Under the pieces are notes generated by a model. That model did no database searches. It was not told the DNA's origin and worked only from the letters and a program-made list of their open reading frames with translations. From Pseudomonadales bacterium (GTDB lineage: Bacteria; Pseudomonadota; Gammaproteobacteria; Pseudomonadales; Azotimanducaceae), in contig JANQOA010000023.1 of assembly GCA_028279305.1 (NCBI GenBank), forward strand, positions 21,800 through 85,799: a stretch of DNA of 64,000 nucleotides. Direction: 5' to 3'. This document shows positions 38,395 through 59,206 of the stretch, piece by piece. The stretch's first letter is position 1, and every line of letters begins with the position of its first letter. The position numbers and the translations under genes were made by a program.

Positions 38395-38409
38395 GCCATC
38401 AGCCCAACG

Positions 38410-39915: not shown

Positions 39916-39918
39916 TGC

Positions 39919-42408
39919 TCAAAGCCTCGCCTCCCTGTTTCTTTTCGCCTGTTTTAACAAGTAGCCCAGTGCACGTCCATACTGATGATTGAGAACGGCG
40001 ACCAGGGCATTAAGCTGATTAAAATCGACTTTGCCCTGACCGAACAACGCAAAGGCACGAATTGGCATGTCATCGATCATCGATTCAAACATGCGCAACA
40101 GCGTGGCATCCATTTTTGCTGCATCCAAATTCAGACTTCTCGTAAACTGCTGGAACGCACGGGCTCTAATACGTTTACCCAACCAGCTGTTTTGCGCCAG
40201 TTCCTGCAAACTGGAGTTGATATGAAAGGGCCGTGCCGACTCAGGCTCAGGCAGCTTGCGTCCCAGCATGCCCGCAAATTGTTCGTCCGATACCTGCATA
40301 CCATCAGAACCCAGACTGAAGTTAACAGCCCTTAACGCATCTGAAACCATGTCATCCGACTCAATGTTAAGGGTCTGCCTGAGCCGAATATCACGACTTG
40401 AGGACCCAATGCGCACCTCATATGCGCCAGCTTCGACAATCCAGCACTTCTCCTGAGGGTCGAATATCTCAAACCCCTGCCGGGAAAGCGTCAACTCTAC
40501 CCTTTCGGTTGCACCCGGATCGACAAACGTTTTGGTAAATGCTTTTAACTCCTGTGCCGGCCTGTGCACATCACTTGCCAAAGCACTGACGTAAAGCTGC
40601 ACAACTTCCGCTCCGGCGACGCCGCCGGTGTTGGTGATGTCCAGGGTTACCATGAGGTCGGACCCGCGCTTTTCGATGCCAAGGTTGCTGAATTCAAACT
40701 GGGTGTAACTCAGGCCGTGTCCAAAAGGAAAAAGCGTTGGCTTATCAGCAGTATCAAAATAGCGATAACCCACATATATTCCTTCCCGATACTGCACTTG
40801 CCGACCGGCGCCTGGAAACCAGGGGTCACTGGGCACATCGGACTGCTGCAGTGGAAACGTCTCCGCCAACTTGCCGCTTGGGTTAACCGCGCCAAACAGC
40901 AGATCAGCGGCAGCGCTGCCGCCCGCCTGGCCACCCAGGTAACATTCCAGGATAGCGCGCGGTTCGTTCACCCAAGGCATGGAGACAGGTGCGCCGTTGC
41001 ACAACACAACCACGGTGTTGGGGTTTACGCCGCACACTGACTGTATCAATCGATTGTGCTGATCAGGCAGATCCATATGCGGGCGGTCGAATCCCTCAGA
41101 CTCATAGGTTTCCGGCAACCCGGCAAACACAATTGCCAACGCCGAGTTCCGCGCTACCCGCACCGCCTCATCGATCAGGCGTTGATCCGGTTCGGAGTGT
41201 ACGGGCTCATATCCGGCTGCATAGGCGATCTGACCCGAACCGCCATGGTGCGCTGCGATGGCGTCAAAGGCACAATCAATTTGCGTGGTATTCACTCGTG
41301 AACTGCCTGTGCCCTGATAACGCGGCTGCTTCGCAAACGCGCCGATAACTGCAATATCCGCTTCACCGCTGATCGGCAGCATGCCCGCGTCGTTCTTGAG
41401 CAGCACCGCTGATTGCGCGGCCGCTTTGCGCGCCAGGCTATGATGAGCAACCTGGTCCACAGACACCGCCTGGTCAGCCAGATCACGCCCGCAAAGGCTG
41501 AGCGAGACATTACGCACAATGATCTCATCCAGCACGGATTCAGCCAGTTCGCCGGATTCAATAGCCCGCTCGATCAGCCTGTCGTTGATTCCGCCGCTCG
41601 CCGGCATCTCCAAATCAAGGCCGGCGGACACACCCTTTACCCGATCGTTGGTAGCACCCCAATCGGTCATGACCAGCCCTTTGAAACCCCACTCATCACG
41701 CAAGACCCGGTTCAGCAGCCAATCATGATCGCTGCAGTAGGTGCCGTTCACGCGGTTGTAGGCACACATGACGGTCCATGGTTGTGCTTCGCGTACCGCG
41801 ATCTCAAACCCTTTCAGGTAAATCTCGCGCAGGGCACGTTCATCTACTATGGCATCGATATACATGCGGCCTTGTTCCTGATTGTTTACCGCATAGTGTT
41901 TGATGCTGGCGCCCACGCCCTGCGACTGTATGCCCTTGATGATTGCGGCCGCCATCTTTCCCGACAGGAAAGGATCCTCGCTGAAATACTCGAAATTGCG
42001 GCCGCACAACGGATGGCGCTTGATATTCATGCCCGGCCCCAATAGGACAACAACATTTTCGGCAACACATTGTTCTCCAAGGGCAACACCAACTTCGGCG
42101 ATCAGGCGTTCATCCCAACTGGCTGCCAGGGCGCTGGCGGTAGGGAAGCAAGTCGCCGGTATCGCCTTGTCCGCACCTACGTGATCGCCCGCGGACGCTT
42201 GTTTGCGGAGGCCGTGCGGACCGTCTGTAATCATCACCGCGGGCAGGTCCAGGCGTTTGCAATCCTGCAGGTTCCAGAAACTCTTGCCTGAGGCGCATGC
42301 CGCCTTCTCCTGCAAGCTCATGCGCTGAACGAGTGCGGCTGCCTCATTGTGTTTGTTAATGAACGGCGCGGCGGGATCTTCCGGAACGTTGTGCATAGGT
42401 GTTCTCAT
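39919..42408 (-). CDS. Glycoside hydrolase family 3 beta-glycosidase
   Basis: An 829-residue GH3 enzyme. The N-terminal barrel has MITDGPHGLRKQ, substrate-binding KHYAVNNQE near 170 and the nucleophile aspartate in GLVMTDWGATND (D249). It continues with the second domain (SALAIVFAGLPETYESEGFDR, divided), the fibronectin-III-like C-terminal domain (GAEVVQLYVS) and about 100 extra residues at the end. Members remove terminal beta-linked sugars. There is no signal peptide, so it should be cytoplasmic. ATG codons at 42408 and 42396 are both possible. It lies downstream of the TonB receptor and upstream of a sulfatase and sugar symporter. Confidence 0.93.
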   Translation of the reverse strand: MRTPMHNVPEDPAAPFINKHNEAAALVQRMSLQEKAACASGKSFWNLQDCKRLDLPAVMITDGPHGLRKQASAGDHVGADKAIPATCFPTASALAASWDERLIAEVGVALGEQCVAENVVVLLGPGMNIKRHPLCGRNFEYFSEDPFLSGKMAAAIIKGIQSQGVGASIKHYAVNNQEQGRMYIDAIVDERALREIYLKGFEIAVREAQPWTVMCAYNRVNGTYCSDHDWLLNRVLRDEWGFKGLVMTDWGATNDRVKGVSAGLDLEMPASGGINDRLIERAIESGELAESVLDEIIVRNVSLSLCGRDLADQAVSVDQVAHHSLARKAAAQSAVLLKNDAGMLPISGEADIAVIGAFAKQPRYQGTGSSRVNTTQIDCAFDAIAAHHGGSGQIAYAAGYEPVHSEPDQRLIDEAVRVARNSALAIVFAGLPETYESEGFDRPHMDLPDQHNRLIQSVCGVNPNTVVVLCNGAPVSMPWVNEPRAILECYLGGQAGGSAAADLLFGAVNPSGKLAETFPLQQSDVPSDPWFPGAGRQVQYREGIYVGYRYFDTADKPTLFPFGHGLSYTQFEFSNLGIEKRGSDLMVTLDITNTGGVAGAEVVQLYVSALASDVHRPAQELKAFTKTFVDPGATERVELTLSRQGFEIFDPQEKCWIVEAGAYEVRIGSSSRDIRLRQTLNIESDDMVSDALRAVNFSLGSDGMQVSDEQFAGMLGRKLPEPESARPFHINSSLQELAQNSWLGKRIRARAFQQFTRSLNLDAAKMDATLLRMFESMIDDMPIRAFALFGQGKVDFNQLNALVAVLNHQYGRALGYLLKQAKRNREARL

Positions 42409-42422
42409 GAGGCAAATAAAAT

Positions 42423-42446
42423 CCGTCCATCAAAGGTGATGGACGG
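42423..42446 (-). terminator. Terminator or attenuator between TonB receptor and GH3 genes
   Basis: CCGTCCATC at 42423-42431 and GATGGACGG at 42438-42446 form a 9-bp perfect stem with a 6-base loop. On the minus strand the stem is followed by ATTTTATTT, so it fits a rho-independent terminator or attenuator after the receptor gene. A second small hairpin (CCC TTT GGG) lies at the receptor stop codon. Confidence 0.65.
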
Positions 42447-42468
42447 CTTCGACCACAAGCCCAAAGGG

Positions 42469-44778
42469 CTAGTTGAACCGGTAAGTAAAGGTACCGCCAA
42501 CGTATCTCTGGTAGTCCCGATTCAGAAACTGGCTGGTGCCGTCCACCGCATCGAAAACAGATTCCAGAAGGACGTTCGTGTAGTCGTCATCAAGCGCATT
42601 TTTTGCAAACAGCGCCAGGTCCCATCTACCGTCGCGGTCTTCCACACCAATCGTCAAGTCGAGTACCGAGTAGCTATCGATGTCCAAACTGGGCCTCTGG
42701 TTCACCGCGCTGACGGCATCATCCTGCCAACGAAACGCACCGGACAAGTAGAAGTTGGCAGGACCGTCCGTGAAGAAGTCGTAACGCGCCTGCAACGTAA
42801 ACTTCAAATCCGGCGAATTTGGCACTTCCTCATCCGCCAGATCCTGAACTCCGCCGATGCAGCCTTGCGCAGCAGTTTGCCCGGTGAAGCACGGGCCGCT
42901 GTCAAATTCATCGTAGAACGCATCGGTGTATGAAACGCCGCCGTTGACCAACAGGTTAGCTGTTGGCTTGGCTGTGAAGTCGACTTCCACGCCGCGGGTT
43001 ATCACGCTGCCCGCGGAAGTGAGAACAAACGCGCCCTGGCCGGCATCAAACCCTTGACCCTGGAAGTCATCGTAAGTGGTGTGGAAAGCTGTCACGCCTA
43101 AACGAAGGCGCCGATCAAACATCTCCGTACGTAGACCAACTTCGAACGAATCCGAGGTTTCCGGATCAATCGGCTCCACTCGATTTGGCGTCAGCCCGAA
43201 TACGATATCGAACCCCTGGGATTTGTAACCGCGGGTGTACGAGACATAGGCTGATGTGTTTTCACCAAGCGCCCACTGCGCCGCTACCTTACCCGATAAG
43301 TCAGTGTCGTCATCACCACCGCTGGTGGCAAAGGCCGGAACTGCCGGAAACGCGATGGGATCGGTCGGGCGGTTAAAGTCAAAATCCAGATCGTCGTAAG
43401 TGAAACGCAGCCCGGCGGTCAAGGTTAATACCTCGGATGCGTGCCAATCCACCTGCCCGAACAGGGCGGCATTTTCGAACGTGACATCGGTATCAAAAAA
43501 GCCGAATTGTGTGAGGCCAAAGGCGCAGGGTGTATCCGGCGGCAGCGCTGGATCGAAACCCGGAACTGCGCAAATCTGAATCTCACGCTGGAAGTAGCGG
43601 GTTAGATCCTGACGCCACAGAAACAGTCCGGCAGTGACGTCAAAGTGGTCAAAACCGGTTGAAGTGAAACGAAACTCCTGGGAAAACTGCTCCTGATCCG
43701 TTGTGCCGCCGTTTGAAGTAATGAGCAACCGGGCATAAGTCGGCTCGGTGAAAGGCAGGTGATCAACGTCCTGTTCCGTCTCAATTGTCCATTCGCGGTA
43801 AGCGGTAATCGAGGTGAAGGTCCAATTCTCGAAGTCGATGGTTAACTCCGCGGACACGCCCCACTGATCGGTATCTGAGAGTACATCGGTGCCCAGCAGC
43901 ACTTCATTGTTGTCATCACCCACATCAACGCCGCCGGCGGCCAGATCGAATCCCAGCAAAGGCAAAATCTGCGGGACCGCGCCAACATTACGCACGGTAA
44001 AGGCACAGCAGTCCCGCTCCTGTTCGCTGTAGTCGGCGATCAACAGCAGATTGGCGTTCTCTGCAAGGTCGATATCCAGCTTGCCCCGAATGCCCTGACT
44101 ATCATCACCATTCAGCGTATCGCCGTTAAACTCGTTATCGATAAAACCATCAAATTGTTTCCAATAGACATTGAGACGGCCGCGTACGGACTCCGACAAG
44201 GGCCCGGATAAGGAACTTTCAACAATCTGCTGATCATCATCGGTTGCGGAGAGTCGAATCATGCCTTCAAACTCTTCTGTTGGCCGCCTGGTGATGACAT
44301 TAATCAGGCCACCCGAGGCATTTTTACCGAACAAGGTACCCTGCGGACCGCGCAGCACCTCCACCCGCTCAATGTCGACCAAGTCGTTCAGGAAACTTCC
44401 GGTGCGGCCCAGAACCACTCCGTCAACCACGGTGCTGACAGTTGGTTCCACGCCCGACTGGAACGCGGTTGTACCAATACCACGAATCAAAACACCATTT
44501 CCCCGTATCCCTCCGGATTGTGTGTGTGTGATGGACGCTGACACCTGGGTCAAATCTTGAAAGTTGTCCGCCTGAATGATGTCCAGGACCTCACCGGAAA
44601 CTGTCGAAACGGATACGGGAACGTCCAGATAATCCTGTTCACGCTTCTGCGCAGTCACCACAATTTCCTCCAACGCGGCTTGTTCCTGAGCATTCGCATC
44701 AACGTGTGCAACCGACAGCACGGCTACCAGGACCGCCGCTGGTACACCTGAACAAAAATCAATTATTTGCCTTTTCAC
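42469..44778 (-). CDS. TonB-dependent outer-membrane receptor
   Basis: A 769-residue receptor. A signal peptide (AAVLVAVLSVAHVDANA) is followed by LEEIVVTAQKREQDYLDVPVSV, the plug motif VEVLRGPQGTLFGKNASGG and a barrel ending RYVGGTFTYRFN. The start is a GTG with AGGGGAAG upstream. It is followed by GH3, sulfatase and sugar symporter genes and faces a TetR gene across a perfect palindrome. It probably imports the glycoside that these enzymes break down. No SusD-like partner is present. Confidence 0.93.
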   Translation of the reverse strand: MKRQIIDFCSGVPAAVLVAVLSVAHVDANAQEQAALEEIVVTAQKREQDYLDVPVSVSTVSGEVLDIIQADNFQDLTQVSASITHTQSGGIRGNGVLIRGIGTTAFQSGVEPTVSTVVDGVVLGRTGSFLNDLVDIERVEVLRGPQGTLFGKNASGGLINVITRRPTEEFEGMIRLSATDDDQQIVESSLSGPLSESVRGRLNVYWKQFDGFIDNEFNGDTLNGDDSQGIRGKLDIDLAENANLLLIADYSEQERDCCAFTVRNVGAVPQILPLLGFDLAAGGVDVGDDNNEVLLGTDVLSDTDQWGVSAELTIDFENWTFTSITAYREWTIETEQDVDHLPFTEPTYARLLITSNGGTTDQEQFSQEFRFTSTGFDHFDVTAGLFLWRQDLTRYFQREIQICAVPGFDPALPPDTPCAFGLTQFGFFDTDVTFENAALFGQVDWHASEVLTLTAGLRFTYDDLDFDFNRPTDPIAFPAVPAFATSGGDDDTDLSGKVAAQWALGENTSAYVSYTRGYKSQGFDIVFGLTPNRVEPIDPETSDSFEVGLRTEMFDRRLRLGVTAFHTTYDDFQGQGFDAGQGAFVLTSAGSVITRGVEVDFTAKPTANLLVNGGVSYTDAFYDEFDSGPCFTGQTAAQGCIGGVQDLADEEVPNSPDLKFTLQARYDFFTDGPANFYLSGAFRWQDDAVSAVNQRPSLDIDSYSVLDLTIGVEDRDGRWDLALFAKNALDDDYTNVLLESVFDAVDGTSQFLNRDYQRYVGGTFTYRFN

Positions 44779-46399: not shown

Positions 46400-47038
46400 T
46401 CAGGGCACCATAAGACTGGTAAGAAAATCAGCGTGCGCGTCGATTGCCGCTTGTTGGGACGCATCGATGCCCGTTAAACGGGAACAAGCGGGCGCAACAG
46501 CAAAAATAAGTGACGCGGCACCGGCCAGGGCGAAGAACGCGTGCCCCGCCATGCTGCTGTCCAGGCCTCTTATTTGAGCGACCCCCTCATTGATCATGAA
46601 ATCGAAACGCGGCTTGAGGTGTGTGTCTACCAGCCACTCCATCAGATCATCGGAGCGATTGCCCGCGTCCACTAGAAAGCGGAAGATTTCCGGGTGCTCA
46701 GCGAGACAACGCACGACTTCACGTAACCCGCCCCGCGCCCGTTCACGATGGGATAGATCCGCGAGCGGCTCGAGGGCTACGTTGATGCGTTCAGTGAGCT
46801 CGTTAAAGATCCTATCTGCGGCCGCAAACCATAGCGCTTGTTTGTTGGGAAAATGGTAAGTCAATAGACCCTGCTCGATACCCGCACGCCGGGCAATCTC
46901 CCGGGTGCTGGTGGCGTCGAAGCCATGCTCCGAAAAAGCTCCGATTGCAGCCTGCACAATCGCCTCGCGGCGCTCGGCGCCCCGGCGGTCTGTACCTGAT
47001 CTGGCTTTGCGTTGTTTTGTCTGCTGCATCCGTGTCAC
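46400..47038 (-). CDS. TetR family transcriptional regulator
   Basis: A 212-residue TetR protein. REAIVQAAIGAFSEHGFDATSTREIARRAGIEQG (split by the turn) and LLTYHFPNKQALW form the DNA-binding domain. The ligand domain includes LVDTHLKPRFDFM. Its ATG overlaps the stop of the COQ4-like gene (ATGA), so it is translationally coupled to it. It likely regulates its own operon through the TTTGTCA palindrome at 48074. Confidence 0.88.
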   Translation of the reverse strand: MTRMQQTKQRKARSGTDRRGAERREAIVQAAIGAFSEHGFDATSTREIARRAGIEQGLLTYHFPNKQALWFAAADRIFNELTERINVALEPLADLSHRERARGGLREVVRCLAEHPEIFRFLVDAGNRSDDLMEWLVDTHLKPRFDFMINEGVAQIRGLDSSMAGHAFFALAGAASLIFAVAPACSRLTGIDASQQAAIDAHADFLTSLMVP

Positions 47039-48021: not shown

Positions 48022-48073
48022 ACGGGAGCCCAATAATTCTAGGTCAGTTGACAAGTTACGCCTCTGCTGAGAG

Positions 48074-48089
48074 TTTGTCAAATGACAAA
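48074..48089. promoter_or_regulatory. Palindrome upstream of the COQ4-like operon
   Basis: TTTGTCA at 48074-48080 and TGACAAA at 48083-48089 form a 7-bp inverted repeat with a 2-base centre. A related half-site TTGACAA occurs at 48048-48054. On the minus strand TTGACA could also serve as a -35 box. The autoregulating TetR of the operon is the probable binder. Confidence 0.5.
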
Positions 48090-48141
48090 GAACATTGGCA
48101 GGCCTCCGGTGCTCTGAATCGAGCATGACGGCAGTTCGAGG

Positions 48142-48696
48142 TTACTGCTGACGAATGCGCGGCGATGCAAGCAACACATGTACTCGATGGCCCGCCGCAT
48201 CCCGTGCGAAATTCTTACTCAAGTAGTTTCGATTCAACTCGAAGTCGTAAAAGGGCTGAACAAACCATCCATCCGATAGCTTGTCGTATTGGATCTCAAA
48301 AACGACCGTGTGTTCTTCGATATGAGACATGCTGACAAGCGCATCCGCTTCTATCTGGATAACCCCTGTCCCGGACGAAGCGTGCTCCGCGCTTGGCACC
48401 TTTATACGGGGCTCTCTCAACAGCAATGGCTGACCGTTCAGTGAAACCTTTGCACCTGCCAGAACCTCCCGAGCAAAACCGTTCGCTTCATCGACCGACA
48501 CAACGCCATCACTATCCCCGTCGATGTAATGGTGTATTTCCGCACCTTCGTCGTACGACGGAAGAATAAGAAGTTTGATGGCTATGCGCTCGAACCCTAT
48601 GGAGACCATAGCCTGCTGCTGTACATTGTCGTGGGGATGTGATGAAACAGCGCCACAGGCAAGACATGTCAGCAATACGAGTAAAACACGGAACAT
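48142..48696 (-). CDS. Exported protein with an EF-hand motif
   Basis: A 184-residue protein with a signal peptide (MFRVLLVLLTCLACGAVSSH). DGDSDGVVSVDE, around residues 59-70, matches the canonical EF-hand calcium loop (D1, D3, D5, G6, E12). The rest is predicted to be mostly beta strands (FERIAIKLLILPSYDEG at the start, HTVVFEIQYDKLSDGW later). I do not recognise the family. Its ATG overlaps the stop of the DUF3500 gene by one base (TAATG), so it is the third member of a tightly coupled operon and likely works with the DUF3500 protein in the periplasm. Confidence 0.75.
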   Translation of the reverse strand: MFRVLLVLLTCLACGAVSSHPHDNVQQQAMVSIGFERIAIKLLILPSYDEGAEIHHYIDGDSDGVVSVDEANGFAREVLAGAKVSLNGQPLLLREPRIKVPSAEHASSGTGVIQIEADALVSMSHIEEHTVVFEIQYDKLSDGWFVQPFYDFELNRNYLSKNFARDAAGHRVHVLLASPRIRQQ

Positions 48697-49823
48697 TACG
48701 GAGCAACCCAGGCGCTGCCGTAGTCGTTCGTGGGATCTCTGTACATGCTATGGGCATGGTCCGTAACGCTCGGAGATTCATCCACGTCTTGCGGCGCATA
48801 CTCAAGCACCAAAGTAGGTCCCGTTACTCTGAAATAGGCAAATCCGAGCTTCGCCGTGGGTGAACCCCACCAGGCAAAGTAGGTTTCGTCGAGATCGGAA
48901 AGTACCCTCGCCATCGCCGCCGCATTGTCGTCTTCATTAATGAAATCCAGCCGCGAATCAATCAGTGCAACCAGCAGCGGTTTCTGATCCTCAGTCAATT
49001 GCGCGCCGGGTATCCCTTCAGGGGCGACAACCGTTCCAAACTCACCCGGGCCCAGCAAGAGATCAATGGGCTGCGGCCCCCGAATTGCAACGCTCTGTTG
49101 TTCGGGTGTCAGACTATCCAAGAGTCTTTGCGCAGCCCGCGTTTCTTCCTCCGTGATAAAAACGTTGTTTCCATCGAACTGAAAATTGAGCGGCTGACCA
49201 CCCGTTAACATCGGCGAGAAAGTTACGTCAGCCCCATAGACCGTCACATTAAGCGCCAGGTGATGTCCGCCAAATTGGAACATCCATGGCTGAGATTCTG
49301 AAGGTTCGCCCAGAAACGCAACATAGTAGAACTCTGTTCCGTACTTGGCGAAACCGCCAGGTGGTAACGTGTCTTCAGCAGCTAACTGGTAGGCCGTGTT
49401 CAGAAAGCCTTTTTCACTCATGATCTCAGCGAGCAGGTCATCGAGGTTGCCGCGTTGCGCTGCAGACAGTGTGCCAAGCATCAACCCGCCACGGGGAATC
49501 ATACCTTCAGGCAAATTGGACCAATTCGACCGCTGTGCATTGTCTGAGAATTCATAACTCGCGGCGTCGCGCTGCTCATTATCCAGAGAGCCGAGGAAAA
49601 CTTGTGCCCGCGAGACTATTGCCCTGGTCTTTGTATCCGCAGATCTCTGATCAAATCTCGCAGCAACACTCAATGGCACCGGACCGGTATTCACACCTAA
49701 AAAGAAGCTGGCTGCTGCACGCGGAAACTGGCTCCACGTAAAAACCATTGCGCCAAAGAGCACAGCTAGAATGACTGCAAGTGCGACTACCGCGATTAGA
49801 AGTTTAGATACTATCGGGTTCAT
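48696..49823 (-). CDS. DUF3500 family membrane-anchored protein
   Basis: A 375-residue protein with one N-terminal membrane segment (LLIAVVALAVILAVLFGAMVF). The remainder matches DUF3500 in layout: FQFGGHHLALNVTVYG, where the GGHH may bind a metal, the LTPEQQ helices, and a late ETYFAWWG, followed by HAHSMYRDPTNDYG near the end. The family has no assigned reaction. The start overlaps the stop of the FAD oxidoreductase gene by one base (TAATG), as does its stop with the EF-hand gene. The three are a translationally coupled unit. Confidence 0.82.
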   Translation of the reverse strand: MNPIVSKLLIAVVALAVILAVLFGAMVFTWSQFPRAAASFFLGVNTGPVPLSVAARFDQRSADTKTRAIVSRAQVFLGSLDNEQRDAASYEFSDNAQRSNWSNLPEGMIPRGGLMLGTLSAAQRGNLDDLLAEIMSEKGFLNTAYQLAAEDTLPPGGFAKYGTEFYYVAFLGEPSESQPWMFQFGGHHLALNVTVYGADVTFSPMLTGGQPLNFQFDGNNVFITEEETRAAQRLLDSLTPEQQSVAIRGPQPIDLLLGPGEFGTVVAPEGIPGAQLTEDQKPLLVALIDSRLDFINEDDNAAAMARVLSDLDETYFAWWGSPTAKLGFAYFRVTGPTLVLEYAPQDVDESPSVTDHAHSMYRDPTNDYGSAWVAP

Positions 49824-51223
49824 TAGATTATTCCGAATTGACCGATAAGGCGGTCAAGTAGTGTACGCGAGCGATGCATACCTTTCTCATCAAGCACATC
49901 CGCCAAGCGCATGAGTTTCGGGATACCGCCGGCACCAATCATGCGAACCGGCTCAGGTTCCCACCGGGGAGATTGATGATTCACCCAGGGCAGGTGCACC
50001 AGTGGTGTATCTTGTTTCAAGACCAGGTCACGGACGATGCGCGCGCCTAAATTTGTCGCCGCCACGCCTTCACCGAAATACCCTCCCGCCCACGCAAATC
50101 CCGTTGATTCATCGTATCCAACCGACGGCATGAAATCTCTCGGTAATCCCATCAGCCCACCCCATCGGCGCGCCACCTTAAACTCGCTGCACCAGGGAAA
50201 GAGCTGATGCAGCTTTTTCTCCAGCAACCGATGTGCAGGATGTTCGTTGAGCGTCTTGTGAGTAATCCTGGAGTTCCAATAGTACTGCACGGCCAGACCG
50301 CCTATCGCTATACGGTTGTCTTTGGTGCGCTGGGCGTAGAGCGGCATCATTGTGTAATCCGCAAACGCAGGGCGGTCATCCAGGCCCGCTCTATCCCAGA
50401 AGGCATCACTTAGCGGTTCAGTTGCAATCATGTAGGAATAGACCGGGGCCACACTCCGCTCGTAACCGGGCAACTGAACCGAGTAGCCTTCCGTGCACTT
50501 GATGATAACCGAAGCATCGACCCGATGAGCGCCAACTTCCACACAGTGCGGGCCAAACCCTGTTGCCCCGGAATGTTCAAAAATCTCCACACCTAGTTCC
50601 GCGGCTGCACGCGCAATACCAACAACCAGTTTGTAGGGATTAATGACTGCACCATGAGGCGTGTACAAAGCCCCGTGAGTTCCTTCTATGCGGAGATGCC
50701 GGGCCATCTCGTTGGGGTTTAAGGTATAGAAGTCTCGATCGGTAATGCCTGCATCCCGATACCCGGCAACTGTCTCGTTGATGGTGTTCATGGAGCGTTC
50801 GCTTGGCGCGTAGTACAGAATCCCACCTTTGTGGTAATCACAGTCGATGCCGAACTCGCCGCACATGCGCGCCACTTCATCAACCGTGTCGTACATTGTG
50901 TGTTCCATGCGCAGGCCGCCGCCCGGCTGAATCGCATCATAATCTGCGACTTCAGGGGTGCTGGCACCCATGCACCATCCACCATTGCGCCCGGACGCTC
51001 CGTAACCCAAATAGTCTTTCTCCAACACAACTACCGACAACTCCGGTTGCGCTCGTTTGATATACAGCGCGGACCACAGACCGCTGAATCCACCACCGAT
51101 AATGGCAACGTCGCATTGGCGATTGCCATCAAGAGGAAGAAAAGACGGAGCTGTGGATACCGTTTTGTGCCACCAGGAGGAGGTGGGATCGTTCTGACTC
51201 GTCAGAGTAGAGGTGTTACTCAT
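49823..51223 (-). CDS. FAD-dependent amine/amino-acid oxidase-like protein (DAO family)
   Basis: A 466-residue flavoprotein of the DAO family. The FAD loop is CDVAIIGGGFSGLWSALYI, followed by VVLEKDYLGYGASGRNGGW, the pattern of glycine oxidase, gamma-glutamylputrescine oxidase and related amine oxidases. FAWAGGYFGEGVAATNLGAR near the C-terminus completes the FAD site. It should oxidise a secondary or primary amine. The open frame reaches 51262; the ATG at 51223 has AAGGTG upstream and is preferred. It heads the operon with the DUF3500 and EF-hand genes and faces a TetR gene. Confidence 0.9.
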   Translation of the reverse strand: MSNTSTLTSQNDPTSSWWHKTVSTAPSFLPLDGNRQCDVAIIGGGFSGLWSALYIKRAQPELSVVVLEKDYLGYGASGRNGGWCMGASTPEVADYDAIQPGGGLRMEHTMYDTVDEVARMCGEFGIDCDYHKGGILYYAPSERSMNTINETVAGYRDAGITDRDFYTLNPNEMARHLRIEGTHGALYTPHGAVINPYKLVVGIARAAAELGVEIFEHSGATGFGPHCVEVGAHRVDASVIIKCTEGYSVQLPGYERSVAPVYSYMIATEPLSDAFWDRAGLDDRPAFADYTMMPLYAQRTKDNRIAIGGLAVQYYWNSRITHKTLNEHPAHRLLEKKLHQLFPWCSEFKVARRWGGLMGLPRDFMPSVGYDESTGFAWAGGYFGEGVAATNLGARIVRDLVLKQDTPLVHLPWVNHQSPRWEPEPVRMIGAGGIPKLMRLADVLDEKGMHRSRTLLDRLIGQFGII

Positions 51224-51374
51224 GCATGCGCACCTTGAAGCCATTAGCCGGCTATCACCCACGGGTTCGCCGATTGTACCACCCTGAGCGGCTTAGCTTT
51301 TGGTCGGGTGACAGGGGCGACATCACAGTGGTCATCCTCTAACTGACGTGCCCCAGGTTCCGTTTCTGTGCTGG

Positions 51375-51392
51375 GTTTTAACTTGTTAAAAC
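51375..51392. promoter_or_regulatory. 18-bp inverted repeat, candidate TetR operator
   Basis: GTTTTAAC at 51375-51382 and GTTAAAAC at 51385-51392 are perfect reverse complements around a TT centre. It lies in the divergent gap between the FAD oxidase operon and the TetR gene, which is the standard place for a TetR site. Confidence 0.65.
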
Positions 51393-51436: not shown

Positions 51437-52126
51437 ATGGGTTTAGTTGCCGAGCTACAAGTCACTAAACGAAATAGAATCCTGAGTGCCACCGTCGAAG
51501 CCGTTACTGAACTTGGCTACGAAGGCATTCGAATGAGGGAGTTGGCTGAACGCTGCGGCGTTACCGTGCCCACCCTCTACAATCAATTTGGGGGAAAGGA
51601 TCAGCTCATTGCCAGAGCCCTTGAAGACGCTATTGGCATAGAAAAACGCATGGTGTCCGCACGCGGCCTGGAGCCCGGTTATGATCGCCTGATCGAACTG
51701 ATCGAGCTGAATGCTGTTTCGCTCATCGAGGGCGGGGTTAGAGGCCGCAGAATTGTGCGCAGCTATACATCTCTAGCCTGGAACGAGCAAACCAGGAACA
51801 AAAACGCTGAGTACCTGACCACGCTACTTAAAGAGTGTCTTCTTGTCATGGTTGCCAAGCGGCAGCTGGCTAAGTGGCTTGATCCCGCGCTGTTAGCTGA
51901 GCAAATGACCGCGGCTAACATTCGAACCTCAATAGAGTGGAGCTTAGAGAACTTATCTACCCGACAGGCTTTGCCGCAAATGCGATATGCCATGGGTATT
52001 GTTGTTCTTGGCGGTGTTCGAGGTTTAACCGCTGACAAATTGATCGACTGGCTGAAAACCGCCCAGAGAGCAATCAGGGAACAGTCCAAAAAAAATAGTA
52101 AACCCAAACAGAAGGTTCGGTACTGA
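51437..52126 (+). CDS. TetR family transcriptional regulator
   Basis: A 229-residue TetR protein. KRNRILSATVEAVTELGYEG and IRMRELAERCGVTVPTLYNQF, then GGKDQLIARALE, form the helix-turn-helix; the C-terminal half is a helical ligand domain with a Lys-rich tail. The frame is open from 51368, but that part contains the palindrome at 51375, so the ATG at 51437 is chosen. It faces the FAD oxidase / DUF3500 operon and is followed 106 bases later by a TonB receptor gene, either of which it may control. Confidence 0.88.
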   Translation: MGLVAELQVTKRNRILSATVEAVTELGYEGIRMRELAERCGVTVPTLYNQFGGKDQLIARALEDAIGIEKRMVSARGLEPGYDRLIELIELNAVSLIEGGVRGRRIVRSYTSLAWNEQTRNKNAEYLTTLLKECLLVMVAKRQLAKWLDPALLAEQMTAANIRTSIEWSLENLSTRQALPQMRYAMGIVVLGGVRGLTADKLIDWLKTAQRAIREQSKKNSKPKQKVRY

Positions 52127-52232: not shown

Positions 52233-54743
52233 TTGACACAATCAGATAACAAAGACTTTTTTGAGTCGTTAACGAGGTTACGGCTTGGATGGCTGCTTAC
52301 TGTCACGGCGGCAGTGATCATGTTTCTACCGTTCAGCGCCGAAACTCAGGCGGCAGAAACTGCTTCCGACGACTTCATCGAAGAGATCTTAGTCGTCGCT
52401 AGAAACGTGGAAGAATCCCTGCAGGAAGCGCCGGTAGCGGTTACAGCAATCAGCGAAGAGACTTTAGATATATTTCGCATCGACGAAGCCACAGATCTCT
52501 TGAGTCGTATACCGGCGATGAACATTTCGATTGGAGGATCGGGCGCCGGCGCGCAAATTACCCTGCGCGGTATCGGCTCGTCCTTTATTTCCAACGCCTT
52601 CGATTCAGCAGTTGCCCTCAACTACGATGGTGTTTCCGTGAGCACCCAGCGGCTTCTGCAGAGTGCGTTCTTCGACGTCGAGCAAGTTGCGGTGTTGAAG
52701 GGGCCGCAGTCTCTTTACTTTGGTAAGGCGGCATCCGCGGGCGTGCTATCACTGCGCTCCGCAAACCCCACCGAAGAATGGGAAGGCAGCATAAAAACTT
52801 CTTATGAGTTCGAAGAAGAGGGTACAACCTTCGGCGGTTATGTATCGGGTCCGCTGACGGATACCTTGGGCTTCAGATTGGCAGGCGAATACCAGGACAT
52901 CGACAAGTTTGTAGAAATCGCGGATGGCAACCCAACTATCGATCCCGACAGAGGTCTGACAAACCTGATTGCTCGAGGGACCCTGCTGTGGCAACCAACA
53001 GATCGTTTCAGCGCCAACTTAAAAGTCGACTACAACAAGCAACGGTCAGAAATCCTCAACAATGCCATCGACATCTTCTGCGGCGGCGATGGCGTACCTG
53101 ATCCGTCCGTATTGTTAGGCGGCCTTTTTGGCGCCACGCCGGGTATCGATCTTTTCTTACCTACTCATGATTGCGATATCGATGATGGCGAGTTCACCGG
53201 GCCCGACGCCAACGCTTTGATCGATACCGTACCGCCGGGTTCCCCTGGGGAAGGCCGGAATATTTTTCGGGCATATAACGACACCGACATCGTTTTTACT
53301 CGATTGCAGATGGATCTGAATCTGAATGAAAATTTCGACCTGACTTTCTTAGGCGGCTATGTAGATCTGGAAAACGAGTACAACGACACGTTTAACTCAA
53401 CCGGCCAGAACCCGGATGGCAGCGCTGCCGGCCTGTCTGCGCCGTTCGAAAACACACTTGAGCAAACCACCTTGGAATTGCGGCTGGTGAGTAACTTTGA
53501 CGGCCCGGTTAACTTCCAGATTGGCGGGTTCTGGGAAGACAGGGATATCGGTCACGAAACCTCGCAAAATGCTTTTAACCCTTCCTTGCTCGGTGTGTTC
53601 GGGCCTCCTTTCGGACCGGATCCTGTGACGGGTGCTACGTTTGATTGGCTTGCCGATAGACCCATCGAGGCAGAAGCACTTTCGTTTTTTGCAAGTGTTG
53701 ATGTACAACTCTCTGAAAAGTGGGAATTGTCCGGCGGTGTCCGCTGGACCGATGAGGAAAAAACCACGTCGGTTGCATTCCCGTTTGTGCACGCCGGGGT
53801 AGTGGCCATTTTCGGAACCGTGAGCTCAGGTTTCCAATCACCGGATATCAAGTTTGAGGATGACAACATTTCACCCGAAGTTGTCTTGCGCTATCTCGTC
53901 AATGACAACGTTTCTATTTACGGTGCTTACAAGACTGGTTTCAAATCAGGCGGACTGGACAACAACACTTTACCCACGGGATCGGTGGTCGGATTGGCCA
54001 GCCCGGATCCAGCGGTTGCTGCCGCGTCAGCAGAATTGTTGCGATTTGAATCAGAAGAATCTGAAGGCTTTGAAGTCGGCCTCAGATCGCAGCTGTTGGA
54101 ACGCGCGTTGACGTTAAACGTCACCGGCTATCGCTACGTCTATGAAGATCAACAGGTTCAGCTATTCGATGCGGGCGTTTTTGCATTCCGGACCTTCAAC
54201 GCCGGTGAGGTCACTACTCAAGGACTGGAAGTGGACTTTATGTGGTCCACCCCAGTGCCGGGACTGAGTCTCTCAGGATCCTGGGCGTTTCTGGATGCTG
54301 AAATTACCGGCGACTTTTTCCCGTCCGGCGTCACCGGCGTAGGTGAAAACACCAAGGGGCAAGACGCCGGATTCGCTCCGGATATATCCGGTAATTTGGC
54401 GATCAATTGGGAAATGGGCCTCAGTGATGGGGTCATGTTGCGCATCAGCCCCAATATCGCCTACAAAGACGAATACAGAGTCGGCGCCGGTTCGGTATTC
54501 GATCCGGTGACTAACCCGACCGGCGCTCTGGTTCAGGACAGCTACACCACTTTCGACTTGAATGTATCACTATATTCGCCCGATGAATCCTGGCGAGTAT
54601 CTTTGATAGGTAAAAACCTTGGTGACGAACAAATCTGGACCTTTGCGGGCAACGCACCGTTCCGTCCGCCCACTGGCGATGACCAATTGGTGGGTTTCAG
54701 CCGCGGCGAGCAGATTTTCTTAGAAGCAGCATTCAGGTTCTAG
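52233..54743 (+). CDS. TonB-dependent outer-membrane receptor
   Basis: An 836-residue receptor, the longest in the window. After a signal segment (LLTVTAAVIMFLPFSAETQA) come IEEILVVARNVEESLQEAPVAV, the plug motif VEQVAVLKGPQSLYFGKAASAG and a barrel ending EQIFLEAAFRF. The start is a TTG with GGAGAG upstream. The plug motif KGPQSLYFGK departs from the RGPQGTLFG of the others, so it belongs to a different sub-branch. It follows the TetR gene in the same direction and probably serves the neighbouring FAD oxidase / DUF3500 module. Confidence 0.92.
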   Translation: MTQSDNKDFFESLTRLRLGWLLTVTAAVIMFLPFSAETQAAETASDDFIEEILVVARNVEESLQEAPVAVTAISEETLDIFRIDEATDLLSRIPAMNISIGGSGAGAQITLRGIGSSFISNAFDSAVALNYDGVSVSTQRLLQSAFFDVEQVAVLKGPQSLYFGKAASAGVLSLRSANPTEEWEGSIKTSYEFEEEGTTFGGYVSGPLTDTLGFRLAGEYQDIDKFVEIADGNPTIDPDRGLTNLIARGTLLWQPTDRFSANLKVDYNKQRSEILNNAIDIFCGGDGVPDPSVLLGGLFGATPGIDLFLPTHDCDIDDGEFTGPDANALIDTVPPGSPGEGRNIFRAYNDTDIVFTRLQMDLNLNENFDLTFLGGYVDLENEYNDTFNSTGQNPDGSAAGLSAPFENTLEQTTLELRLVSNFDGPVNFQIGGFWEDRDIGHETSQNAFNPSLLGVFGPPFGPDPVTGATFDWLADRPIEAEALSFFASVDVQLSEKWELSGGVRWTDEEKTTSVAFPFVHAGVVAIFGTVSSGFQSPDIKFEDDNISPEVVLRYLVNDNVSIYGAYKTGFKSGGLDNNTLPTGSVVGLASPDPAVAAASAELLRFESEESEGFEVGLRSQLLERALTLNVTGYRYVYEDQQVQLFDAGVFAFRTFNAGEVTTQGLEVDFMWSTPVPGLSLSGSWAFLDAEITGDFFPSGVTGVGENTKGQDAGFAPDISGNLAINWEMGLSDGVMLRISPNIAYKDEYRVGAGSVFDPVTNPTGALVQDSYTTFDLNVSLYSPDESWRVSLIGKNLGDEQIWTFAGNAPFRPPTGDDQLVGFSRGEQIFLEAAFRF

Positions 54744-54818: not shown

Positions 54819-56003
54819 TCAGGTCTTCCGGTATATCGTGACAACCGCGGCGCCGGGTACACCAATGTTGTGCTGGAGGGCAACTCTGGCGTTCTCGACC
54901 TGGCGGCTGCCCGCTTCCCCACGTAGCTGCGTCACCAGTTCAAAACACTGCGCCAGCCCCGTAGCACCAATGGGATGCCCTTTGGACATGAGACCACCCG
55001 ACGGATTCACCACCAGACGGCCGCCATAGGTGTTGTCGCCATCCTCAACAAACCGCGCAGCTTGGCCTTCGCCGCAGAGTCCCAGGCTTTCATAGGTGAT
55101 TACCTCATTAGGGGTGAAGCAATCGTGCAGCTCCACCACATCCAACTGCTCCGGTCCAAGCCCCGCCTGCTCATACGCGTCTTTTGCCGCACGAACGGTA
55201 TTGTCGCGGCCCACGGCATTGACGGTTCGCTCATAGATGACTTCAGTGTCGGTGGCCATACCCTGACCGGCAATCAACACGTCGGATCTTAAACCTTTCC
55301 TGCGGGCGAAATCTTCGCTGACAAAGACTGCAGCCGCGGCACCACAGGTTGGCGGGCAACACATCAACCGCGTCAGATAGCCGCCGAATACAACCTGCGC
55401 ACCTTCGACATCCGCCTGCGTAATTGGAGCCGTGAAGACCGCATGGGGATTCCTGGCGGCATGCGTGCGGCTTTTCACGGCCACCTTCGCAAAAAGATCA
55501 GGCTTGGCATCGTAAGTCTCCATGTATTCAGCACCAGCCAGGCCAAACATGATCGCCGCGGGCGGTGCATCCAGTTCGTTAGTCGGGCTCACCTGCATCA
55601 GCGCTTCAAATGTCTCCTTTGCCGGACTGGTTCTGTCGTCCCAGTGACTACCAAGGGCACCTGCCTGCATCTGCTCAAACCCGAAGGCGAGCGCACAATC
55701 GACAAGGTCCGATTCAACCGCCTGACGGGCAAGATAGATCGCCGATGAGCCGGACGAGCAGTTGTTATTGACGTTAAAGATGGGGAAGCCCGGCATGCCG
55801 AGCTCGTTGATCACCTTCTGTCCACAAGCGCTGTCTCCATAAACATAACTCGCGTAGGCCTGCTGTATGTCGGCAAGTTCCACACCCGCGTCCTCGAGCG
55901 CAAGCTGCACCGCGTTCCTGCCCATCAGCTCGTAGGGCTGCTTGTCGCTCGGTTTGGTGAATTTGCCCATGCCAACACCGCCAACAATGACTTTTCGGTT
56001 CAT
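54819..56003 (-). CDS. SCP-x/lipid-transfer type thiolase
   Basis: A 394-residue thiolase-fold enzyme. The active-site cysteine is in NNNCSSGSSAIY (C82), and the catalytic histidines in VELHDCFTPNE and GGLMSKGHPIGATG. This pattern belongs to the SCP2/lipid-transfer thiolases, which act on beta-keto-acyl-CoA or catalyse retro-aldol or condensation steps, for example in sterol or phenylpropanoid side-chain removal. It begins 9 bases after the acyl-CoA synthetase gene, as the last gene of the esterase operon. Confidence 0.92.
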   Translation of the reverse strand: MNRKVIVGGVGMGKFTKPSDKQPYELMGRNAVQLALEDAGVELADIQQAYASYVYGDSACGQKVINELGMPGFPIFNVNNNCSSGSSAIYLARQAVESDLVDCALAFGFEQMQAGALGSHWDDRTSPAKETFEALMQVSPTNELDAPPAAIMFGLAGAEYMETYDAKPDLFAKVAVKSRTHAARNPHAVFTAPITQADVEGAQVVFGGYLTRLMCCPPTCGAAAAVFVSEDFARRKGLRSDVLIAGQGMATDTEVIYERTVNAVGRDNTVRAAKDAYEQAGLGPEQLDVVELHDCFTPNEVITYESLGLCGEGQAARFVEDGDNTYGGRLVVNPSGGLMSKGHPIGATGLAQCFELVTQLRGEAGSRQVENARVALQHNIGVPGAAVVTIYRKT

Positions 56004-56012
56004 ACCGTTCTC

Positions 56013-57620
56013 CTAGGCCTTTTTCTCGATTGGCGGAAGCCGTTCTCTTAATATGGTCTTGGTAATCTTATTGAGCGTCGAGCGCGGCAGTTCATCAACT
56101 ACATATACGCTGCGGACCACCTTGAAATCGGGCAAATTTGCCCTGCAGTGCTCGATGATCAGTTTTTCGATCATTGCCGCATCCAGGCTTGCATCCGACG
56201 GGATAACAAACACCACCGGCACTTCGTCGAGCATGTAGTGTTTCTGCCCCACTACGGCAAGTTCAGAGACTAGCCCCGTCTGCATGATGACCGTTTCTAT
56301 TTCTGACGCGGCCACGTTTTCCGCACCCACCTTCAGCATGTCCTTGTCACGGTCGGAAAAGTAGAGCCAGCCATTTTCGTCGCGGCTGACAACGTCACCG
56401 GTATCGAACCAGCCGTTATCATCGAACGAAGACGCCATTGCATCGGGATTCTTGTAGTACTCCTTGAACATCGTCACGCCAGGGACACCGCGAAAGAAAA
56501 GCCGGCCCCGCTCGCCAGGTCTGCATAAATCTCCGCTGCCTTTTCGAACCTGAATCTGGTACTCCGGCGCACACCGGCCAATGTTCATCGATGGGCCCAG
56601 GTGGTCGTAATCAGCAATCGTCCCTTGCGTCACAGTTTCCGTCATGCCCCAGTAACCGATCGTTGCAACGCCAAAGTATTCTTCCACTTCCTGTGATCGC
56701 ACACCCAGCAGGAAAAAGCGTAATTGGTGCTCTGGTACGGGCTGGGTCGACATCGCCTTTAGCGAGAATCCGATCATGGTGGTCCACGTCACGTTGTGCT
56801 CGAGGATAACCTGCCAGTAGCGCGAAGATGAAAACCTCGGCTGCAGAACCAATGTGCCGCCCGTCCAATGGGTTGTCAGCATGGAATAAGACTGCGCGTT
56901 GGTATGAAACAGCGGGAAAGAGGTGGACGTGACGTCTTCGTGCCGAACCCGCAGATGTTGCGCGTTGGTTTTGGCGGCCCACACCCCGTTGCCGTGGGTC
57001 CAGAGCACCGCCTTGGGCCGTGACGTGGTGCCCGAGGTGAACTGGATGCTCAAGCTGTGAGCGGGATCCGGCGCGCGAAGTGTAATTGGCTGCGATTCGA
57101 ACAATTCATCAAACGCGACCCCCTCAATCGCTTTGATCGCCGCAGGGGCATCCTCATGAAACTCGCCGGCATCGTTGTCGGTGACCCCAATAAACGACAG
57201 ATCAGGACACGCTTCTTTGATCAACTTGGCGAACTTCGGCTGAGTCAGACTACAAACCGCCTCAGTCACTTCCGCAAAGTAACTCAGATCCCGCGCAACC
57301 GAGCGGGTGTTAGTCGAAACCGCCACGGCTCCGAGGATCGCGCAGGCATACCAGCTCACGATGAATTCAGGGGAGTTGTCCATATGCAGGATGACAAAGT
57401 CGTCGGGCTTCACACCCCGCGCGCTCAAACCCGCTGCGAGGCGTCGAGCCTGGGTAAAGAGCTCCGCATAGGTGACGTTCTGGTACTCGCCATCAAACGG
57501 ACACCAGATCAGTGCATTCTTGCCCGGCGCTCTTTCCGCCCACTGCTCAAGCATCCAGGGGATATCCAACCCTTCTACCGCGGCGGCATAGCTCTGCTCA
57601 ATCTGCGCACTCAGGCTCAT
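56013..57620 (-). CDS. AMP-dependent acyl-CoA synthetase
   Basis: A 535-residue member of the ANL superfamily. IQFTSGTTSRPKAVLWTHG near residue 193 is the P-loop-like ATP site, GYWGMTETV the motif after the hinge, WFDTGDVVSRDENGWLYFSDRDKD (divided) the A7-A8 region, and RSTLNKITKTILRE the catalytic lysine. It activates a carboxylic acid to its CoA thioester in the cytoplasm. Its neighbours suggest an acid freed by the esterase upstream and cleaved by the thiolase downstream. It starts 14 bases after the esterase gene. Confidence 0.93.
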   Translation of the reverse strand: MSLSAQIEQSYAAAVEGLDIPWMLEQWAERAPGKNALIWCPFDGEYQNVTYAELFTQARRLAAGLSARGVKPDDFVILHMDNSPEFIVSWYACAILGAVAVSTNTRSVARDLSYFAEVTEAVCSLTQPKFAKLIKEACPDLSFIGVTDNDAGEFHEDAPAAIKAIEGVAFDELFESQPITLRAPDPAHSLSIQFTSGTTSRPKAVLWTHGNGVWAAKTNAQHLRVRHEDVTSTSFPLFHTNAQSYSMLTTHWTGGTLVLQPRFSSSRYWQVILEHNVTWTTMIGFSLKAMSTQPVPEHQLRFFLLGVRSQEVEEYFGVATIGYWGMTETVTQGTIADYDHLGPSMNIGRCAPEYQIQVRKGSGDLCRPGERGRLFFRGVPGVTMFKEYYKNPDAMASSFDDNGWFDTGDVVSRDENGWLYFSDRDKDMLKVGAENVAASEIETVIMQTGLVSELAVVGQKHYMLDEVPVVFVIPSDASLDAAMIEKLIIEHCRANLPDFKVVRSVYVVDELPRSTLNKITKTILRERLPPIEKKA

Positions 57621-57634
57621 CTCAGTCTATCCCA

Positions 57635-59206
57635 TTAGTCTTCGACACACGCGAAGTTCTCCGCCTTGTCAGGCGATCCGGATCCCTTGTATTGGGCATA
57701 CTGCGGATAGGGACACAGCGGCCGCGAGAATCGCTTTGCATCCGGGTTCGCCAGGTGCGCTTCCAGCACCACTTCTGCCCAGCTCACAACCTGATCGGGT
57801 GCGATGGCGGTGGCCTCAATAAAGGTCAGCGCGCCAGGGTGCTCGGCGATGATGCGGTCGGGTGCTTTGTCGTTTTCCACCCAGTCGACGATGGCCTGCA
57901 CGTAGTCCGCAGCCCAGGCGCCGGGGCCACCGGCGCAATGCACCATGCCTGGCACCATGAACGTGCGCAGAAACTCATCGGTCTTTTCTTTTCCGTTGAT
58001 GTCCTCGGTTTCGAAGTACCATTCTTCGAGAACTTTGGCGCGGCAGGGATGGTCGTTCCAACCGTTGTAGATGATCAGCTTGCCACCGTTGGCATGGAAC
58101 GCGGAGAAGTCAGGCGTCGGGATATCAACGGCGTGCATGACACGGCCGAGCTCTTCCAAATCGGCCACCGTGTCGAACGCTTCCAGCGAAAAACCGGGCT
58201 TTCTGTGCATGACGCTTTCGATCACCGTTGCCGTCAGGTCGTTGGCAGGCTCCAGCATGAACGACGGGTTCCCCGTCACCCAGAGCTCAAAGTCCCCGCC
58301 CAGCCCCGACCCTGGGTAGTTGCCCGGCACAACCACGTTGCCGGACTCGTCCGTGATGCCGGTATAGAAAAACCGTGCGGTTTCGATCTGACCTTCCGTG
58401 AGACAGTCGGCTGCCGGAGCGCCCTGGCAGGCCAACCTGTCCAGGTTCAATAAATCCATCGTGCACTTACGCGGGTCACCGATGATGCCGTCCGCCACCC
58501 CATCGAGCATGTCGCAGGCGCGCCGGGTATTTGCATCCAATAACGCCACCGAATCCGGCGTGAGCGGGTGTGCCCGTTGCATACGGGCGCCCTCCAGTGA
58601 GAACGCCAGGAGCCCGGTGCCGTAGTCGATGGCCGGATCTCCGGCAATGATGCCGTCGAAATCATCGGGATATCGCAGCGCTTCCATGAGTGCCGCGCGA
58701 CCACCGTTGGAACACCCCCACAGGTAGGCGTGCTCGACCTCCCGTCCGTAGAAGGTGGCGATAATGTGTTTGCTGAGCTTGGTGGTCAGGTGGTTGGCGC
58801 GAAACGCAAAGTTGAGCTTGCGCTCGTCATCGCGATAGAACGTGTGATCATTCTGGGTGGGGTTCGCCGCATCGGTGGTCGCCATCGCAAACCCTTCATC
58901 GAGCAGGCTGGTGGTGTCACCGATCACACCGGCAAGCCCACCTGGCGCGTGATACATCAGTCGACCGGTCCAGCGTTCGAGAGGCATGCTCACCTGAAAA
59001 CGGATTGTGCCATCGATGACGCCATTGACCTGACAATGCTCAGGGATTTGAGCCGATGCGGCGACCAGACGCCCAGGCTCAACCAAATGTGTACCGTCCG
59101 TCAGCTGATAAAGCGCTTCACACTTCTTCGCAGCCGCTCCGGCAACACCAGGTGGCAACAGGCAAGACAGAAAGACGCAACCTAAAAACAAGATCGTTCG
59201 CCGCAC
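57635..59206 (-). CDS. Tannase/feruloyl esterase family exported esterase
   Basis: A 523-residue protein with a signal peptide (ILFLGCVFLSCLLPPGVAGA). YLWGCSNGGRAALMEA contains the nucleophile serine S166, IYNGWNDHPC the catalytic aspartate region and FMVPGMVHCAGG the catalytic histidine, with the disulfide-linked cysteines next to Ser and His that mark the tannase/feruloyl esterase family. It should cleave phenolic-acid or related esters in the periplasm. It is the first gene of the operon with the CoA synthetase and thiolase, with a shared 50-bp promoter element 57 bases upstream of its start. Confidence 0.92.
   Translation of the reverse strand: MRRTILFLGCVFLSCLLPPGVAGAAAKKCEALYQLTDGTHLVEPGRLVAASAQIPEHCQVNGVIDGTIRFQVSMPLERWTGRLMYHAPGGLAGVIGDTTSLLDEGFAMATTDAANPTQNDHTFYRDDERKLNFAFRANHLTTKLSKHIIATFYGREVEHAYLWGCSNGGRAALMEALRYPDDFDGIIAGDPAIDYGTGLLAFSLEGARMQRAHPLTPDSVALLDANTRRACDMLDGVADGIIGDPRKCTMDLLNLDRLACQGAPAADCLTEGQIETARFFYTGITDESGNVVVPGNYPGSGLGGDFELWVTGNPSFMLEPANDLTATVIESVMHRKPGFSLEAFDTVADLEELGRVMHAVDIPTPDFSAFHANGGKLIIYNGWNDHPCRAKVLEEWYFETEDINGKEKTDEFLRTFMVPGMVHCAGGPGAWAADYVQAIVDWVENDKAPDRIIAEHPGALTFIEATAIAPDQVVSWAEVVLEAHLANPDAKRFSRPLCPYPQYAQYKGSGSPDKAENFACVED

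Follow-up and report, generated by a model that had tools for sequence, protein, structure and literature searches.

Anglerases were recently described as metal-binding domains fused to permeases; they are defined by a signal peptide that is cut directly before a histidine and by an Ig-like β-sandwich fold, and their representative Ang-1 binds copper via His1 with a Kd of ~74 nM (PMC12537917). Neither DUF3500 nor the EF-hand is a term used in the main text of that paper. DUF3500 proteins (PF12006), in turn, are widespread, yet the open-licence papers that we searched hold almost no functional work on them. The fungal member AN10530 of Aspergillus nidulans is proposed to open 1,2,3,5-tetrahydroxybenzene during gallate breakdown (cited in PMC12388069), and a further paper lists the family as 'open-ring' (PMC13094099). 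Here we analyse a locus in which a DUF3500 protein (P0002) is encoded between an FAD oxidase (P0003) and a small EF-loop protein (P0001), opposite a TetR-family regulator. It lies in a 64,000-nucleotide stretch of a Pseudomonadales bacterium (GCA_028279305.1, contig JANQOA010000023.1, positions 21,800 to 85,799), hereafter the window; L-numbers denote sampled loci.

Our best explanation, which we hold to be about an even call, is that P0002 is an exported, metal-dependent enzyme that acts on a phenol-like small molecule and is served by a co-translated metal carrier with an N-terminal histidine. We put forward more tentatively the broader proposal that DUF3500 proteins of several phyla are exported metal-dependent enzymes, each supplied with metal by a dedicated partner that is encoded alongside and descends from the HupE/UreJ N-terminal domain. 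In the same open-licence literature we found neither a link between DUF3500 and this anglerase-like domain nor a description of a cognate DUF3500 enzyme/metallochaperone system.

DUF3500 and an N-terminal-histidine partner recur together

In at least five phyla, DUF3500 genes have behind them, in most cases overlapping by 4 bp as ATGA, a second gene that encodes a secreted protein of ~180 amino acids whose predicted mature N-terminus is a histidine. The pair is present in Rhodobacteraceae and other Pseudomonadota, Deinococcus, Acidisarcina (Acidobacteriota), Spirosoma (Bacteroidota) and Paenibacillus (Bacillota), and ~27 of the 44 distinct DUF3500 loci sampled carry such a partner. A loose regular expression for a signal peptide plus His proved unspecific, since it also matched 43 of 520 control genes; the claim is based on family profiles instead. 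Ang-like profile matches in the sampled loci adjoin DUF3500, and of the five strong EF-protein matches that 348 Ruegeria-family genomes gave, all lie directly behind it. On plasmids of Deinococcus, Acidisarcina, Agrobacterium rubi and Spirosoma, DUF3500 is annotated as followed by a small 'hypothetical' and/or a HupE/UreJ gene, and on those of Sphingomonas, Komagataeibacter, Ancylobacter and Marinibacterium by a small gene; for these plasmid partners, too, a signal peptide followed by histidine is predicted.

The partners come in two kinds, one with an EF-hand (HPH..., HRLDEYLQ...) and one without the EF loop (HALPGS..., HPMPNSVV...). Both kinds exist on their own and also at the N-terminus of HupE/UreJ permeases, the EF kind in L128 and the other in L024 (PF13795, 1.8e-39) and L133-L136. 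A P0001-family profile built without L128 matches the EF-type domain of the L128 HupE permease at 54 bits, and profile-profile comparison of the L128 group with the P0001 family gives a probability of 99.6% (E 6.5e-24). Sequence homology between the EF-type and ANG-type partners was not established, hhalign probabilities ranging from 6 to 82% with the groups compared; their kinship is suggested by the common layout and by the fold match of the EF type.

EF-type and other-type loci form separate supported groups in a tree built from 41 DUF3500 sequences. The partner labels need 8 changes on this tree as against 21.6 after shuffling, with none of 200 shuffles as low, and a Mantel test shows the distances of DUF3500 and of its EF partner to co-vary (r 0.76, 0 of 5,000 permutations). 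Judged from these sequence patterns, DUF3500 and its partner are inherited together across bacterial phyla.

P0001 resembles an anglerase and P0002 carries near-invariant residues

The first-pass annotation had called P0001 a calcium-loop protein. Its loop DGDSDGVVSVDE is a canonical 12-residue EF-hand (D-x-D-x-D-G-x-V-x-x-x-E, residues D59-E70), and in Pfam the EF-hand stays below threshold (EF-hand_STIM1, 22.1 bits against a cutoff of 32.2). The calcium label is nevertheless secondary, because the main body of the protein is a HupE/UreJ-type N-terminal-His domain. Cleavage of the signal peptide is predicted between CGAVSS and HPHDN, leaving His20 (SHPHD) as the mature N-terminus, and in the relatives the cut likewise falls directly before a histidine. 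The structural model (pLDDT 79) is an Ig-like β-sandwich with the EF loop inserted after strand 2 and flanked, ahead of strand 3, by helices 48-58 and 68-79. Searched against solved structures, the model comes closest to 9GCE (E 4.9e-5), in which the Ang-1 domain of a HupE/UreJ-2 permease has copper bound; the zinc proteins ZrgA and PA4063 rank lower in the list. P0001 gave no match to DUF1007 (PF06226) in the Pfam search, and its homologues L031 and L094 reach 25.3 and 20.1 bits, below the curated cutoff of 27, over their N-terminal half including the HPH start. On the model, P0001 is thus better read as an anglerase-like domain that carries an EF loop and, unlike its homologue in L128, is not fused to a HupE/UreJ-2 permease.

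P0002 is a clear member of its family (229.1 bits against a gathering cutoff of 27.2, residues 64-369), as the first-pass annotation had it. Aligned DUF3500 sequences share a near-invariant HH...E...HxH set, in P0002 H187, H188, E341, H356 and H358: among sequences with a residue at the position, the two adjacent histidines are conserved in 41 of 41, the glutamate in 39 of 39, and the last two histidines in 39 of 40 and 40 of 40, respectively. The same residues are found in crystallised Amc20. This conservation suggests a metal or acid-base site in DUF3500.

Some DUF3500 proteins without a partner (L018, L097, L099, L100) have a predicted signal peptide, a mature N-terminal histidine and a His-rich start, as in L097, where cleavage after A exposes HEAPIDEHTQLIP. 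It is as if, judging by these starts, the metal-capturing end were built in.

Several points weigh against an enzyme served by an anglerase-like carrier. Such a partner is missing from about 17 of the 44 DUF3500 loci sampled. The fold match of P0001 to 9GCE reaches TM-scores of just 0.51 and 0.55, and the sequence of 9GCE (RbAng-1a) is not among the PDB hits listed for partner profile A2; partner profile A5 gave no hit. The P0002 model (pLDDT 66) is of low confidence around HxH, and a metal site is not visible in it. Finally, 9X86, the only solved DUF3500 structure and the single return of the P0002 fold search, is labelled a dehydratase (ApmL/Amc20, amipurimycin biosynthesis) and not an oxygenase; no publication on ApmL was found in the open-licence literature.

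Could DUF3500 instead be a periplasmic metal-handling protein that, together with the anglerase-like domain and HupE/UreJ, captures copper or nickel and has no organic substrate? HupE/UreJ permeases as a recurrent third gene, two-component systems that often adjoin the pair and the His-rich N-termini of some partnerless family members would fit such a role in metal homeostasis. However, Amc20/ApmL is described as a biosynthetic enzyme, the fungal homologue is assigned to the breakdown of gallate, and the genes that recur with the EF type are O-methyltransferases rather than metal resistance genes. We regard metal homeostasis with no organic substrate as rather unlikely.

FAD oxidase and TetR are not part of the conserved module

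The first-pass annotation had joined all three proteins, under a TetR palindrome, into one set whose translation is linked. The one-base TAATG overlaps behind this claim are real, and so is the perfect inverted repeat before the divergent regulator gene, whose product is a TetR protein by Pfam (TetR_N, 47 bits). The name 'amine oxidase-like' does not hold for P0003: the flavin amine oxidase family PF01593 finds no match, and the protein is a DAO/OrdL-type FAD oxidase instead (PF01266, 196.5 bits against a cutoff of 27.9). It has an alternative GTG start at 51262, and no signal peptide was seen. Its best NCBIfam model, the aminophosphonate oxidoreductase TIGR03329, scores 214.9 bits, so far below the cutoff of 632.8 that P0003 is not a member.

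Is the trio conserved? A scan of ~85,000 species genomes with P0002 alone as query returned four orthologues, two of them in Ruegeria and two in metagenome bins, at 52-63% identity. None of 58 relatives of the window's genome encodes a DUF3500 protein more than 36% identical to P0002, and an orthologue of P0001 is absent from 39 other sampled members of the genus. In L030 and L031 the EF gene overlaps the end of DUF3500 by 4 bp, and it is still there in L033, where the DUF3500 copy has decayed; in L032 the sequence ends ~450 bp past DUF3500, and the EF gene is not within that stretch. The gene upstream varies, being an O-methyltransferase in Ruegeria (L031) and, after a gap, a VOC-family protein in L030. 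The marine isolate Ruegeria arenilitoris has the orthologous genes as an operon of O-methyltransferase, DUF3500 and EF protein. Directly upstream of the DUF3500 module in L031, L033 and L092 lie a divergent OmpR-type regulator and a histidine kinase, and similar two-component systems stand near the module in Deinococcus (L135), Agrobacterium rubi (L133) and Spirosoma (L134).

Genomes holding the orthologous pair have no orthologue of P0003: family members in the Ruegeria and L030 genomes are 28-33% identical and encoded away from the pair, and the L032 genome has a weak fragment. Its best relatives in a 349-genome sample of the phylum are 34-41% identical and, where inspected, have different neighbours. 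Nor is there an orthologue of the TetR protein among the 58 relatives (best 32% identity). A conserved trio of FAD oxidase, DUF3500 and EF protein was accordingly rejected: what the first-pass annotation had named as refuting its trio, occurrence together here only and other neighbours elsewhere, holds for P0003 and TetR, which were not found beside the pair in other genomes, but not for DUF3500 and the EF protein, which stay together. Among the sampled genomes, P0003 is joined to the pair in that of the window only, and in the best reading of these comparisons it is a local recruit. That the three proteins form one pathway unit under TetR, as the two overlaps and the divergent regulator with its unique palindrome would allow, is unlikely given this distribution and the change of upstream gene from one orthologous locus to the next.

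The inverted repeat consists of 8-bp arms, GTTTTAAC-TT-GTTAAAAC, 45 bp upstream of the TetR start. Arms of at least 8 bp with a spacer of up to 10 arise in 48 of 2,000 dinucleotide shuffles of the intergenic region (2.4%), so the palindrome by itself is modest evidence. It is present once in the 5.7-Mb genome, even when up to two mismatches are allowed, which fits a local operator. From its position and uniqueness, TetR probably binds the palindrome and controls the operon.

The window's module was probably acquired

On the DUF3500 tree, P0002 groups with Ruegeria sequences and apart from the DUF3500 proteins of its own genus (L019-L023). This placement indicates that the module in the window probably came from outside the genus. 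The other neighbours of P0002 on the tree are, we take it, sponge- or coral-associated sequences. The DUF3500 genes of L033, L095 and L096 have decayed by stops and frameshifts, and an EF-type gene or a piece of one still adjoins them.

Several copies on plasmids, the decayed ones and the lack of the pair elsewhere in the window's genus could hint at a mere plasmid-borne cassette whose adjacency reflects horizontal transfer and not joint function, but this is very improbable, since transfer alone would not explain the same partner being kept over such divergence, with the overlapping order retained across phyla, partner type and distances following the DUF3500 tree and none of the five strong EF-type matches in the Ruegeria-family genomes lying away from DUF3500.

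Layout and neighbourhood

The features of the locus are collected in Table 1. The TonB-dependent receptor beyond TetR is possibly co-regulated with the TetR locus and may serve uptake, as its position suggests. In the window, 3.5-8 kb off and past this receptor, a tannase/feruloyl-esterase-family protein, a CoA ligase and a thiolase are encoded. The nearest solved structures of the esterase-family protein are MHETase and feruloyl esterases, and this run of genes may degrade phenolic esters. On the other side, a further run likely constitutes a locus for using a sulfated sugar. The TTGTCA-based repeats include TTTGTCA-AA-TGACAAA (48074-48089), with GTCAGTTGAC close by; from their sequence they are a candidate second TetR operator.

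Table 1. Genes, junctions and repeats of the locus, in window coordinates
Feature	Position	Strand	Basis
Run of MFS sugar transporter, sulfatase, family 3 glycoside hydrolase and TonB receptor, consecutive	37075-44778	-	
TTGTCA-based inverted repeats before the downstream TerB-like gene and its TetR (46400-47038)	48037-48092		
P0001 gene, secreted 184-aa protein with EF-hand loop	48142-48696	-	sequence, profiles, fold model
TAATG stop/start overlap, P0002 gene to P0001 gene	48694-48698	-	1-base overlap, read in sequence
P0002 gene, 375-aa DUF3500 protein with N-terminal membrane anchor and predicted periplasmic domain	48696-49823	-	sequence, Pfam
TAATG stop/start overlap, P0003 gene to P0002 gene	49821-49825	-	1-base overlap, read in sequence
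P0003 gene, 466-aa DAO-family FAD-dependent oxidoreductase	49823-51223	-	sequence, Pfam
Perfect palindrome GTTTTAACTTGTTAAAAC, candidate TetR operator between divergent genes	51375-51392	.	read in sequence
TetR-family regulator gene, divergent from the three minus-strand genes	51437-52126	+	Pfam TetR_N
TonB-dependent outer-membrane receptor gene, directly after TetR	52233-54743	+	sequence, Pfam
Run of thiolase/lipid-transfer protein, AMP-forming CoA ligase and tannase/feruloyl esterase-family protein	54819-59206	-	

Discussion

How might the module work? With recurrent adjacency and overlap, homology to HupE/UreJ N-terminal domains, near-invariant residues and a partner type that tracks the tree read directly from sequence, we infer localisation, metal, transfer, substrate and regulation as follows. 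The N-terminal helix would hold the DUF3500 protein in the inner membrane and leave its domain facing the periplasm, where the HH/E/HxH residues would hold a metal, most likely copper or nickel. P0001, co-translated from the shared mRNA, would capture a transition metal with His1 and hand it over to DUF3500 or keep it available, its EF loop presumably binding Ca2+ in a structural role; in other genomes, the HupE/UreJ permease may supply the metal or pass it on. The substrate, probably a small phenol-like compound, would enter through an outer-membrane receptor and then be converted by DUF3500. O-methyltransferase homologues stand beside the pair in Ruegeria, Agrobacterium, Ancylobacter and Marinibacterium, and together with the tannase, CoA ligase and thiolase genes near the window locus they point, circumstantially, to phenolic substrates. 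Cytoplasmic P0003, added upstream, could serve the same route as the oxidase of an amine or of a compound resembling an amino acid, and TetR probably represses both the operon and itself via the palindrome.

The pair gives the DUF3500 family its first recurring partner, and metal a testable role. Among described relatives, ApmL/Amc20 (9X86) belongs to the same family as P0002 (phmmer 9e-27) and shares its HH, E and HxH residues; it is distant in the tree, and the solved chain covers the domain alone, lacking the membrane anchor of P0002. We know of no metal-carrier partner of ApmL/Amc20. AN10530, a fungal protein compared here through published statements alone, falls into the same Pfam family by annotation, and P0002 might be a metal-dependent ring-opening dioxygenase, an activity that has been proposed in print for AN10530 only. 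P0003 shares with TIGR03329, PuuB/OrdL and glycine oxidase the DAO-family FAD enzyme type. The closest parallel to P0001 is RbAng-1a (9GCE): both have a signal peptide followed by His1 and an Ig-like β-sandwich with helices between strands 2 and 3, and, as with Ang-1, HupE/UreJ permeases carry homologues of P0001 as fused domains. In contrast, RbAng-1a has three helices at that site whereas P0001 has two around its EF loop, and P0001 stands alone, is paired with DUF3500 and lacks a sequence match to 9GCE. The parts of the module are of known kinds; what the open-licence literature searched did not yield is the link between DUF3500 and an anglerase-like domain, a link that would add to the permease-fused anglerases stand-alone members that bear an EF-hand and partner an enzyme family.

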